Assembly: GCF_023256255.1 (NCBI RefSeq)
Contig: NZ_JAGDXD010000066.1
Location: 1-64,000, forward strand
Source of the DNA: Caldivirga sp.
GTDB lineage: Archaea; Thermoproteota; Thermoprotei; Thermoproteales; Thermocladiaceae
Reading direction: 5' to 3'
DNA: 64,000 nt
The translations under genes and the position numbers were made by a program. Position 1 is the first letter of the stretch; the number at the start of each line of letters is the position of its first letter. This document shows, in pieces, positions 6,377 through 10,086 of this stretch. The notes beneath the pieces were generated by a model that ran no database searches, had not been told where the DNA came from, and worked only from the letters and a program-made list of their open reading frames with translations.

Positions 6377-6466
6377 CTTAAAATTAAACCAAATGTAGGG
6401 CATTATTGTTTTCAACATACACTTACGTGAGCACACCTAATCAACCTAAGCCGCATTAAAGGCCTA

Positions 6467-7276
6467 ATGAGCCTAAGTAGCTTAGGCTTAAGGCCGTTAA
6501 CAGTGTCCGTAGCCTTCACTAGTGGACCAAAGGGTGGCACAGGTAAGAGTACCTTAGTGGCTAACATAGCGTCAATGATTGATGAACCAGTGGTTATCCT
6601 TGACTTAGGCTTCGATGGTAATGTAACGGCAAGTAGGCTTCATAAGGTTGAGTACACTGATGAATCTAGTGGTTTCATAGATTACGTTGCCTACGGGTCT
6701 GAACTGAACATGATTGAGTCTAAGGAGGAACCTAACGTTAAATTCATTCCACCTGGCTCATTGAAGAGCTTAAAGATACCTAAGCTTGTTTTCTCCATGC
6801 CCCTTGAGGCCATGGCTAATAGGCTTTCAAACATGGTTGCCTTACTAGCTAAGAGTGGGTTATCAATACTGCTCATAGACCTTCCATCAAATCCAGGGTT
6901 CCTAGGTCCACTTTATCCACTCCTACTCTACTACAGCGACATAATTAATGTTGTTATTGAACCTGGTCAAGTTTACGTAGGTGTGTTAAGTGAATTGTAC
7001 AAGTGGTTAACTAAGATAGTTGATGATGAGGCCATGGTTAACGTTATAGTTAACAAGTACCACGAGTACTTTGATGGTTACCCAAAGGAGGCTAATAGAT
7101 ATGTTATAAGAGGTAAGGTGTACTTAGTTAGACTTGACCCAGTAGCCATGGCACTTACTCTGAAGGGTGAATTAGCGGTTAAGTATAGGGAAGCTGTTGT
7201 GTTTAAGAAGTCCATTGATGAATTAACTAAGGACATGGTTAACCAAGTCAGCATGTACATGGGGGTGGTTAGATGA
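6467..7276 (+). CDS. ParA/MinD-type ATPase, first gene of the HerA-like operon
   Basis: 269 residues with a deviant Walker A motif GPKGGTGKST (residues 20-29), the hallmark of ParA/MinD proteins, a Walker A' region VVILDLGFDGN, and a switch/Walker B region LLIDLPSNPG. ParA-type ATPases dimerise on ATP and position DNA or membrane machines. There is no adjacent ParB or MinE-like gene. Its stop overlaps the next start by 4 nt (ATGA, 7273-7276), so translation is coupled to the small protein that follows and ultimately to the membrane HerA-like ATPase. A role in placing or loading that machine is inference from operon structure. Confidence 0.88.
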   Translation: MSLSSLGLRPLTVSVAFTSGPKGGTGKSTLVANIASMIDEPVVILDLGFDGNVTASRLHKVEYTDESSGFIDYVAYGSELNMIESKEEPNVKFIPPGSLKSLKIPKLVFSMPLEAMANRLSNMVALLAKSGLSILLIDLPSNPGFLGPLYPLLLYYSDIINVVIEPGQVYVGVLSELYKWLTKIVDDEAMVNVIVNKYHEYFDGYPKEANRYVIRGKVYLVRLDPVAMALTLKGELAVKYREAVVFKKSIDELTKDMVNQVSMYMGVVR

Positions 7277-7587
7277 TGAAGGATATTGATAGGATTAGAA
7301 GAATAATAATGGAGGATGATGGTAATGCAACTCAAGTTAATCAACAAGTATCCATTAAGAGAAGCAAAACAGACATAGCCATTGAGCTTCTTGAGAATTT
7401 CACTGAAATATTCGGTGAGGATGATGAGTTAGTAACTAAGATACTGAATAAGGTTACCATAGATGACATATGTGTTGAAGTAAGTAAGTATAATTCAAGA
7501 TTAGCGGACTTCATAAAGACTTGGTTAAGGTTCAGGTTAAGTAAATGTGAGCCATATGGTGAAGAGAAGCATAACCAAGTACAGTAG
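7273..7587 (+). CDS. Small acidic helical protein, second gene of the ParA-HerA operon
   Basis: 104 residues, no recognised domain. The first 30 residues are charged and likely disordered; the rest predicts as amphipathic helices (TDIAIELLENFTEIFGEDDE, then DDICVEVSKYNSRLADF). There is no signal peptide or membrane segment. The start overlaps the ParA stop by ATGA, and its end overlaps the start of the next gene, so it belongs to a translationally coupled series. It could be a partner or adaptor of the ParA-like ATPase, analogous to small partners of other ParA proteins, but nothing in the sequence proves this. Confidence 0.75.
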   Translation: MMKDIDRIRRIIMEDDGNATQVNQQVSIKRSKTDIAIELLENFTEIFGEDDELVTKILNKVTIDDICVEVSKYNSRLADFIKTWLRFRLSKCEPYGEEKHNQVQ

Positions 7588-8029
7588 TTTCGTGAATAAT
7601 ACCCTTAACTCCCTGGTGGATCACGAAGCCACTCAGGAATCCAGCTTACGTAAGTATAGTATTAATGATAGTAAAATACCTAGGGAACTGGGAATTTACC
7701 TGAGGGACTGCGGTGAATTAAGGCAATGGTGCATCAGAAAGTTAAGGAAACTGTTAAGTAGATATAGGTGGTATGATGTAGTTAACTTACTTAAAATAAT
7801 TAAGGCTAAGGGATTAAACATAATAGTGTTAATGGCTTTAGCTGAAAATGAAGATGATTTACTTAACTACGTTTCAAGTGGATCATTTGATAAAGCTAAG
7901 GTTGTTAAACTACTAATGAGCGAACTAGGGATCAGTAGTGACGCTGCGGAACGCTTAGTGAACGGTAAGAACATTAATCATAAACCCCTCAGGATGTTTA
8001 GGTGGAATTTCCTCCCAAGGTCAATATGA
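7556..8029 (+). CDS. Small helical basic protein, third gene of the ParA-HerA operon
   Basis: 157 residues from ATG 7556; a GTG at 7547 is an alternative start. I do not recognise the family. It is Lys/Arg-rich with Leu/Ile-rich helices, including WCIRKLRKLLSRYRWYDVVN and a C-terminal AKVVKLLMSELGISSDAAER segment that resembles a small helical DNA- or protein-binding module. It lacks membrane segments. It overlaps the preceding gene by about 32 nt in another frame, and its TGA overlaps the ATG of the HerA-like gene (8026-8029). This degree of overlap implies coordinated synthesis of all four products. Confidence 0.7.
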   Translation: MVKRSITKYSSFVNNTLNSLVDHEATQESSLRKYSINDSKIPRELGIYLRDCGELRQWCIRKLRKLLSRYRWYDVVNLLKIIKAKGLNIIVLMALAENEDDLLNYVSSGSFDKAKVVKLLMSELGISSDAAERLVNGKNINHKPLRMFRWNFLPRSI

Positions 8030-10086
8030 TCTTCACCACGAGAATTAGAATAATGATTACCGCATTAACGCTGATAATACTTTCCTCATTAATAACTAGA
8101 TACGCCCTAATAGCTCTAGTAGTTTTAATAATAATATTCAGGAATGACCTAGTTTTACTAACCTTATCTACCAAGCATGGTGTAGGGCCGCAATTAGTGG
8201 TGAGGGATAATTACGTTTATGACCCAGTTAATAAGCTTATTCACTTATTTCTACTTGCTGAACCTATTCATGATTTACTTAGGCTGAGTGAAGATAGGTT
8301 CGTTAATCTTGTTAATGAAATGCTACTTAGGTTGAACCTATGCGATAAATGCTATGTAGCATTCATAGTAACCAGCGATAGGAAGCTGATTAGGGTATCT
8401 ATGGTTGATGAACCACCGTTTAATGATTTCAAGGCATTTCAAGCAAATGCTGTTAATGTACTAGAGGATTACTTCATGCTTAAACCAATTAAGGGAGATG
8501 AGCTTAGAAACCTTATAAATCAATCACCATACCCTGCATCAAGCCTAGTGATCGTGCTAGCGGCATCATTAGTAGTTTCCCTACTGTTCGGGGTCTTGGG
8601 TATTATACCTTGGTTAACATTCGCCACAATAGTGATTAAGCATTATTTAAGCGGAAGGTTCACTGTTAATAATGGATTCTTATTCAGCAGGATTAGTACC
8701 AGGAATGAACTTATGATGAGTAAGTTAACGCCAGCTGATGTTTACTCATTGGCGAAGGCGTTCCATAATACTATTAGTGATTATGCCCTTATAATATCAG
8801 GGAACAGTGAATTATCAATACTGGCTACTAGGGAGTATCATAAAGCCTCAGAGTCCCTTGTGGTTAAGGAAAGAGGTAAGAGTTACCCAGGCTTATTATA
8901 CTGGAGGAACGTAATAGACAGATTATCAACGGGTGAATTACCATTAAGGTTAATGCTACTGTGCAATAGAGGCTTTGAATATGTTAGCACCATTAAGAGC
9001 AAGGCTGCATCATACGCATTATGGGTTCCTGAAGGCTTCCTACTTAATGGGCTATCCCATGACACTGCAGTATTCATACCGCTTATTGGGGGGAGACTAA
9101 GGTTAAGTGAAGGCGGTAGGGTTATTAGAATTGGGGTTGATAGTCTTGGAAAACCTGTTGAGGTTGACCTAGATTCCTTACCGGCAGGCCACATGCTTCT
9201 ACTGGGGCCTACTGGTATGGGTAAATCATGGGCTGCACGGACCATATTAGCTAGGTTAATTAAAATGGGGTTAAGGGTTGTGGTAATTGATCCACATGGT
9301 GAATACGGTAACTTAGGTTTACCCACTATTGATGTTTCTGAACGCTTCGTGGACTTCCTTAATCCTGTAAGTAAGGTTGAGGGTAAGGAGACTATACTAA
9401 GGGTTGCGCAGTCAATATCTGAGGCATTCAATGTAAGTGACCTTGACTTAATACTGAGTGATTTAGGAGACTTTAATGAACATGAAGACTTTAGGGAGAC
9501 GTTTAGTAAAGCAGCGGAGGCTACGTATAGTGTGGAACTCTCATACATATATAGCATTATATCTAACAGCCTAGGCAGAAGGGGCCTTATTACCCCTGAG
9601 GAGTTAAGGCAGGGGATGGTTTTATCCTTTAAGTCAATATTACCTAACCCTGAATTAACAGCCTTCGCGATGAACCAGGTTACCGCATACCTTTACTCGA
9701 TGTTTGCCGGTAAGATGGGTAAGCTAAGCAGTATACTGGCTATTGATGAGGCGTACTACGTCATGGGTAGTAAGTTAATGGAACTCTACGTGAGGGGGCT
9801 TAGGAAGTCGGGCCTTGGTGTGATGCTTATAACACAAACTCTAACTAATGTATCAAGTAGCCTAATTCAAAACATGCCCCTAATCATAATGATGGGTGGA
9901 CCTGATTCCTACATAATTGAGTCTATGAGTTACCTTAAGCTTGACCAAAATGAATTTGAGTGGCTTAGGCTAGGCTTAGCACCTCACATGATGGGGAATA
10001 GAAGTAGGGCATTACTTATAGAGGGGCCTGTAAGGAGGCAAGTACTTGTGGATCTTGATCCAAGACTAAAACCCACGAATAATTAA
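8026..10086 (+). CDS. Membrane-anchored HerA/VirB4-type ATPase (CedB-like)
   Basis: 686 residues from the ATG that overlaps the previous stop (ATGA); a GTG at 8002 would add 8. Two hydrophobic segments lie in the first 50 residues, and another pair near residues 175-215 (SLVIVLAASLVVSLLFG and the following helix) anchors it in the membrane. The C-terminal half is a HerA/FtsK/VirB4 motor: Walker A GPTGMGKSW near residue 395, VIDPHGEYGN, Walker B LAIDEAYYVMG near 571, and a sensor region MLITQTLTNVSSSL. Such membrane-tethered hexameric ATPases pump DNA; CedB in the crenarchaeal DNA-import system has the same architecture. No pilin or polytopic channel gene is adjacent. Confidence 0.85.
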   Translation: MIFTTRIRIMITALTLIILSSLITRYALIALVVLIIIFRNDLVLLTLSTKHGVGPQLVVRDNYVYDPVNKLIHLFLLAEPIHDLLRLSEDRFVNLVNEMLLRLNLCDKCYVAFIVTSDRKLIRVSMVDEPPFNDFKAFQANAVNVLEDYFMLKPIKGDELRNLINQSPYPASSLVIVLAASLVVSLLFGVLGIIPWLTFATIVIKHYLSGRFTVNNGFLFSRISTRNELMMSKLTPADVYSLAKAFHNTISDYALIISGNSELSILATREYHKASESLVVKERGKSYPGLLYWRNVIDRLSTGELPLRLMLLCNRGFEYVSTIKSKAASYALWVPEGFLLNGLSHDTAVFIPLIGGRLRLSEGGRVIRIGVDSLGKPVEVDLDSLPAGHMLLLGPTGMGKSWAARTILARLIKMGLRVVVIDPHGEYGNLGLPTIDVSERFVDFLNPVSKVEGKETILRVAQSISEAFNVSDLDLILSDLGDFNEHEDFRETFSKAAEATYSVELSYIYSIISNSLGRRGLITPEELRQGMVLSFKSILPNPELTAFAMNQVTAYLYSMFAGKMGKLSSILAIDEAYYVMGSKLMELYVRGLRKSGLGVMLITQTLTNVSSSLIQNMPLIIMMGGPDSYIIESMSYLKLDQNEFEWLRLGLAPHMMGNRSRALLIEGPVRRQVLVDLDPRLKPTNN

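Follow-up and report, generated by a model that had tools for sequence, protein, structure and literature searches.

The operon and its conservation

The question raised by this locus of Caldivirga sp. is which machine is served by a ParA-type ATPase that is encoded in one operon with two small proteins and a membrane-anchored ATPase of the VirB4/HerA type. The stretch analyzed (the window) covers 64 kb of contig C66, one of the 71 contigs of its genome (G000), and the related genera covered by the searches include Thermocladium, Vulcanisaeta, Thermoproteus, and Pyrobaculum. We conclude that the operon very probably represents the TedB plus ParA module of the Ted DNA-exchange system of Thermoproteales, by which these heat-loving archaea would pass DNA between cells. 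The published Ted system comprises the pilin TedC, the channel TedA, and the ATPase TedB, often with VirC1/ParA-like and HerA-like genes (PMC9905601). The four genes of the operon are as follows.

6467..7276, + strand: ParA, 269 amino acids (aa); ATPase of the ParA/MinD family, TadZ/FleN- and VirC1-like, with a deviant Walker A motif, KGGTGKST
7273..7587, + strand: S1, 104 aa; small acidic helical protein, candidate Ted accessory protein; ATGA overlap with ParA
7556..8029, + strand: S2, 157 aa; small basic helical protein with C52 and C59 (CX6C), candidate Ted accessory protein
8026..10086, + strand: VirB4/HerA ATPase of the TedB clade, 686 aa; ATGA overlap with S2

All four are open reading frames in tight series, with ATGA overlaps at 7273 and 8026 and a longer overlap at 7556, as an earlier note made from the sequence of this DNA had described. 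The ATG start of S2 lies inside S1, giving an overlap of 32 nucleotides (nt), and an alternative GTG start is possible upstream at 7547; for the ATPase, an alternative GTG start at 8002 would give a protein of 694 aa. Between this genome and others of Caldivirga, the proteins share an identity of 81 to 97% for S1, 66 to 82% for S2, 84 to 93% for ParA, and 69 to 86% for the ATPase. The order ParA-S1-S2-ATPase is also found in three other Caldivirga genomes, in Thermocladium, in a third genus (g2), and in Vulcanisaeta. Since identity extends across the Caldivirga genomes and the order is kept in four genera, we regard the four genes as real. The Caldivirga operon stands at the same site between metabolic genes, with the same chromosomal neighbors in the other genomes of the genus.

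Placement of the ATPase in the TedB clade

Hydrophobic blocks at residues 1 to 49 and 168 to 205 of the ATPase each have room for two helices, in agreement with the two pairs of membrane helices read from the sequence in the earlier note. The Walker A motif (GPTGMGKS) lies at about residues 394 to 401 and the Walker B motif ends in DEA (D574-E575), and a family profile search matched the protein to DUF87/HerA (E-value [E] of 1.6e-18). The genome that supplied the TedB reference is one that we take to be Pyrobaculum calidifontis. Its pilin matches the solved TedC pilus (PDB 8dft) with an E of 7.5e-64 and bears the cleavage site named by Beltran et al. (2023, PMC9905601). The window ATPase aligns over its full length with this P. 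calidifontis-type TedB, including conserved D574 and E575. In the phylogenetic tree, these two proteins form one clade with the product of the Thermocladium gene adjacent to tedC and with Vulcanisaeta proteins (support, 98/99). The clade lies outside the HerA helicases and CedD, and CedB is a weaker neighbor (89/91). The likeness to CedB and TedB drawn in the earlier note was right, and more literally than claimed, whereas its suggestion that the machine is undescribed does not hold for the core system, since the ATPase clusters with the known TedB of the Ted locus.

Other memberships were rejected. The best match in G000 to the CedB model scored 29 bits against a curated cutoff of 700; the window ATPase scored 34.8 bits against the CedD cutoff of 600, for which the best score in the genome was 56 bits. 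A HerA-NurA repair helicase is likewise not indicated, as the HerA equivalog (NF040819) gave 29 bits against 970 and the tree also separates the two.

TedB-like genes occur in more than one copy in several genomes. A second paralogue in G000, on C40 (G000:C40:3961-5907, L058), falls inside the same TedB clade and is without the operator described below. Its counterpart in another genome (G003:C41, L059) has a TedA homologue within a few kilobases, which suggests a second Ted-type system. One genome of the Pyrobaculum family (G025) has five TedB-like loci with similar neighbors, on C1, C2, C3, C5, and C7 (L066, L067, and L069 to L071), which is odd for a purely domesticated system. Vulcanisaeta distributa JCM 11216 (G021) has four copies, on C26, C27, C28, and C31 (L180, L061, L046, and L045), with several frames broken.

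Other Ted components

The ParA protein was recognized as such in the earlier note, and family profile searching agrees (CbiA/ParA; E of 1.1e-7). Its nearest solved relatives are archaeal MinD proteins, and it matches the ParA encoded at the Pyrobaculum Ted locus with a profile probability of 97, so that the MinD/ParA (VirC1-like) ATPase of Ted loci is represented in the window. The earlier note had treated ParA as an unusual addition; a VirC1/ParA-like gene is already listed in Ted loci (Beltran et al. 2023, PMC9905601).

The window genome also encodes a TedC homologue (G000:C55:42671-43015; E of 1.1e-28), which is not adjacent to the operon. It is followed by a gene for a polytopic protein of 1,101 aa, which occupies the place of TedA. 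In Thermocladium, the genes for ParA, S1, S2, TedB, TedC, and a polytopic protein are contiguous, with the pilin and polytopic genes directly after TedB. This contiguity matches the statement of Beltran et al. (2023, PMC9905601) that the Thermocladium TedB ATPase gene adjoins tedC. The remark in the earlier note that no pilin or channel gene is adjacent therefore stands for Caldivirga and does not extend to Thermocladium.

Large proteins of 900 to 1,800 aa, each with six to seven helices at the N terminus, form a family encoded alongside TedB or TedC (L042:3426-7760, L047:10950-16316, and L109:6376-9681); in Caldivirga and Thermocladium, this family occupies the place of TedA. The neighbors of tedC on C55 were rejected as pilus genes; they include genes for glutamyl-tRNA reductase, RNase HII, and a MoCF-domain protein. 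A RadA-like recombinase paralogue is found in Ted loci of the Pyrobaculum type (L076:14227-15165; also L066, L075, and L077).

The two small proteins

Searches of S1 and S2 against Pfam, NCBIfam, and PADLOC gave no credible family, in line with the description of the middle two genes as unrecognised in the earlier note, and both are conserved with the ATPase. S2 was found in 20 of the 61 genomes searched, its own included and one match being doubtful, and C52 and C59, seven residues apart, are invariant in all 15 aligned sequences. S1 is more variable than S2; it could be traced in Caldivirga, Thermocladium, and the third genus, in the last with a match probability of 70. The AlphaFold model of S1 is all helical and of low to moderate confidence (predicted local distance difference test [pLDDT] of 61); that of S2 has a pLDDT of 70, and Foldseek found no PDB match to it below an E of 1.8. 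The positional counterparts in Pyrobaculum (cl6) were rejected as homologues for lack of profile similarity, and we do not claim homology across the order. S1 and S2 are conserved candidate Ted components and appear to be new.

A palindrome shared by Ted and type IV pilus genes

When the DNA preceding ParA, tedC, and a TadA/VirB11-type ATPase gene on C14 was inspected for promoter elements, it revealed a 32-bp palindrome, GTAGGGTAATG-N10-CATTACCCTAC, which usually lies 37 to 41 nt (about 39) upstream of start codons, often between divergent genes. These three unlinked loci had been picked before the motif was known, and all carry it with identical spacing. In Caldivirga, sites of this putative operator precede the ParA-TedB operon, tedC, and genes for the TadA/VirB11-type ATPase, a TadC-like platform protein, and pilin-like proteins:

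6395..6426 in the window, + strand: degenerate copy, 40 nt upstream of the ParA start codon
G000:C55 (L109): upstream of tedC
G000:C14 (L185): upstream of the TadA/VirB11-type ATPase gene
G000:C28 (L228): upstream of the gene for the TadC-like platform protein
G000:C57 (L230) and C43 (L229): upstream of pilin-like genes

The window has an exact match to TRTAGGG-N21-CYTACDT at 6394 to 6428, and the site upstream of ParA is conserved in the other three Caldivirga genomes. Another operator-bearing locus, C42 (L227) / G001:518647, has no clear target gene. Sites with four or fewer arm mismatches numbered 0 in six shuffles of 508 kb and 1, itself from Caldivirga, in 1.23 Mb of other loci. Genome-wide counts were obtained by pattern search with one mismatch allowed, against a control with the reversed pattern. 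Every Caldivirga genome showed an excess (24 against 6, 20 against 10, 27 against 6, 19 against 9, and 10 against 4). Outside Caldivirga there was no consistent excess, with the exception of a Vulcanisaeta-type genome (G013; 11 versus 3).

Enrichment of the motif cannot be argued from loci that it was used to select; their gene content, however, provides an independent test. The platform protein found through the operator is homologous to the one in the Vulcanisaeta locus described below (probability, 99.9; E of 9e-38), as is a pilin-like protein to a protein of that locus (probability, 97; E of 3e-11). The sharing of a putative operator by Ted and type IV pilus genes appears to be new, and a joint Ted and type IV pilus regulon in Caldivirga is likely. 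No report of a regulatory link between Ted and type IV pili was found in the literature searched.

Divergent from tedC lies a gene for a 342-aa protein without a Pfam match (L109:10154-11182; orthologues in L110 to L112). In four Caldivirga genomes the same operator lies 39 nt from this gene as well, and its product may be a further Ted component.

Counterparts in Vulcanisaeta and a probable partner pilus

In Vulcanisaeta, genes for a TadA/VirB11-type ATPase and for a TadC-like protein of about seven helices lie immediately upstream of the ParA-S1-S2 trio. Two genomes (L042/L120 and L043/L121) have TedB, TedC, and TedA in this locus as well, and others have the trio without TedB. Vulcanisaeta thus clusters in one locus the counterparts of most operator-bearing Caldivirga genes, an arrangement that appears to be new. 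In the third genus, the TadA/VirB11-type ATPase gene adjoins tedC, and in the window genome its counterpart stands alone on C14. The window operon itself lacks the secretion ATPase and TadC expected in an operon for a type IV pilus; the genome encodes both at other sites, preceded by the shared operator. For Thermoproteales, Makarova et al. (2016, PMC4858521) described pili of clade 4G that have a FleN/MinD ATPase of their own as well as small helical proteins. The partner pilus is probably of this clade.

Proposed mechanism and alternatives

To judge from its family, TedB would be a membrane-anchored VirB4-like pump that powers assembly of the TedC mating pilus, translocation of DNA, or both. 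Gene order suggests that ParA may act as a positioning ATPase of the MinD/TadZ/VirC1 type that places the machine and that S1 and S2 may be the adaptors linking ParA to it. The scattered Caldivirga parts (the window operon, C55, C14, C28, C57, and C43) would be tied together by one operator, and Ted and the type IV pilus probably act together, by analogy with Ced, which acts together with the Ups pilus in Sulfolobales (PMC11868833). The fuller proposal for the family of Caldivirga and Vulcanisaeta, in which Ted and the type IV pilus would form one coregulated composite machine, positioned by ParA/MinD with two new adaptors and scattered in Caldivirga under a single operator, is one to which we give an even chance.

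Several observations weigh against the assignment to Ted. As tested, there is no profile match in G000 to the VirB6-like TedA, and the polytopic protein encoded after tedC has no profile similarity to it. The tree does not settle whether the window ATPase, rather than the C40 paralogue, is the strict orthologue of P. calidifontis TedB. The operator copy of the window is the most degenerate of the set, with mismatches at 7 of 22 arm positions. Finally, Vulcanisaeta has a second ParA-S1-S2 set among type IV pilus genes with no TedB (L173 to L176), so that the pilus may be where the trio primarily belongs. It could then be a positioning module of the TadZ/FleN kind for a type IV pilus, and TedB a mere traveling neighbor that joins it in no single complex. 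The content of those loci (TadC-like, TadA-like, ParA, S1, and S2) is consistent with this, as is the FleN/MinD ATPase of clade 4G pili. However, the partner of the trio in Caldivirga, Thermocladium, and the third genus is TedB, with no pilus genes attached, and translational overlaps couple the trio to TedB in the window, so we consider a pure pilus module possible but rather unlikely.

Three further alternatives are less probable. A ParA fold, a DNA pump of the FtsK/HerA type, and a basic S2 could together make up a plasmid-like or chromosomal segregation module, with S1 and S2 as the partners of ParA. The closer kinship to TedB and the contiguity with tedC in Thermocladium argue otherwise; in addition, family searches gave no ParB-like match, a plasmid protein search gave nothing beyond one P-loop hit, and the chromosomal neighbors are the same in other Caldivirga genomes, which makes this reading improbable. 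That constant place between metabolic genes also speaks against a mobile conjugative element that has not been domesticated, to which the multiple TedB copies of some Pyrobaculum-family and Vulcanisaeta genomes might point; viral and plasmid relatives were found only at the P-loop level, and we assign this origin a similarly low probability. Least probable of all is the defence role entertained in the earlier note, here as an antiviral system built on a HerA-type ATPase. PADLOC profiles for HerA/Mads8 do match, but only over the shared ATPase domain and not in ParA, S1, or S2. No defence gene and no nuclease or sensor partner adjoins the operon, whose neighbors are metabolic genes, and conservation of the order in four genera is more in keeping with a housekeeping function.

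With Ted retained as the preferred assignment, the locus bears on how Thermoproteales may exchange DNA. In Sulfolobales, genetic work has demonstrated that chromosomal DNA is exchanged through a system of this kind and that the exchange depends on Ced as well as on the Ups pilus. In Thermoproteales, a mating pilus has been solved, but the literature searched yielded neither an Ups counterpart nor a regulator nor a complete inventory of components, and no demonstration of DNA transfer by the published Ted system. The shared operator supplies such an inventory for the entire putative regulon, marks S1 and S2 as candidate components, and predicts a pilus partner.

Comparison with known systems

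In the bacterial Tad pilus (TadZ/CpaE) and in Agrobacterium (VirC1), as here, a ParA/MinD ATPase is encoded with the motor of a pilus or type IV secretion system, a kinship at the superfamily level only. The clade 4G pili, known from Vulcanisaeta, Caldivirga, and Pyrobaculum, are closer, in that they combine a secretion ATPase, TadC, a FleN/MinD ATPase, and small helical cytoplasmic proteins, although the main text of the paper describing them does not deal with VirB4 or conjugation (PMC4858521). The Ced system of Sulfolobales (CedA, CedA1, CedA2, CedB, and CedD; PMC11868833) likewise has a membrane-anchored VirB4/HerA ATPase and acts beside a type IV pilus, but it is without ParA, and its CedB and CedD models match far below cutoff here.

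The nearest likeness is to Ted (PMC9905601), with which the locus shares an ATPase of the TedB clade, a ParA-like partner, a TedC homologue in the genome, and contiguity in Thermocladium. In contrast to the published system, the Caldivirga TedB operon is detached from tedC, two previously unreported small proteins are present, the TedA position is held by a much larger polytopic protein, and the operator is common to type IV pilus genes. The operon thus belongs to an already described system whose genomic arrangement here is new, and it adds two candidate components not reported before and a putative regulon that is open to testing.

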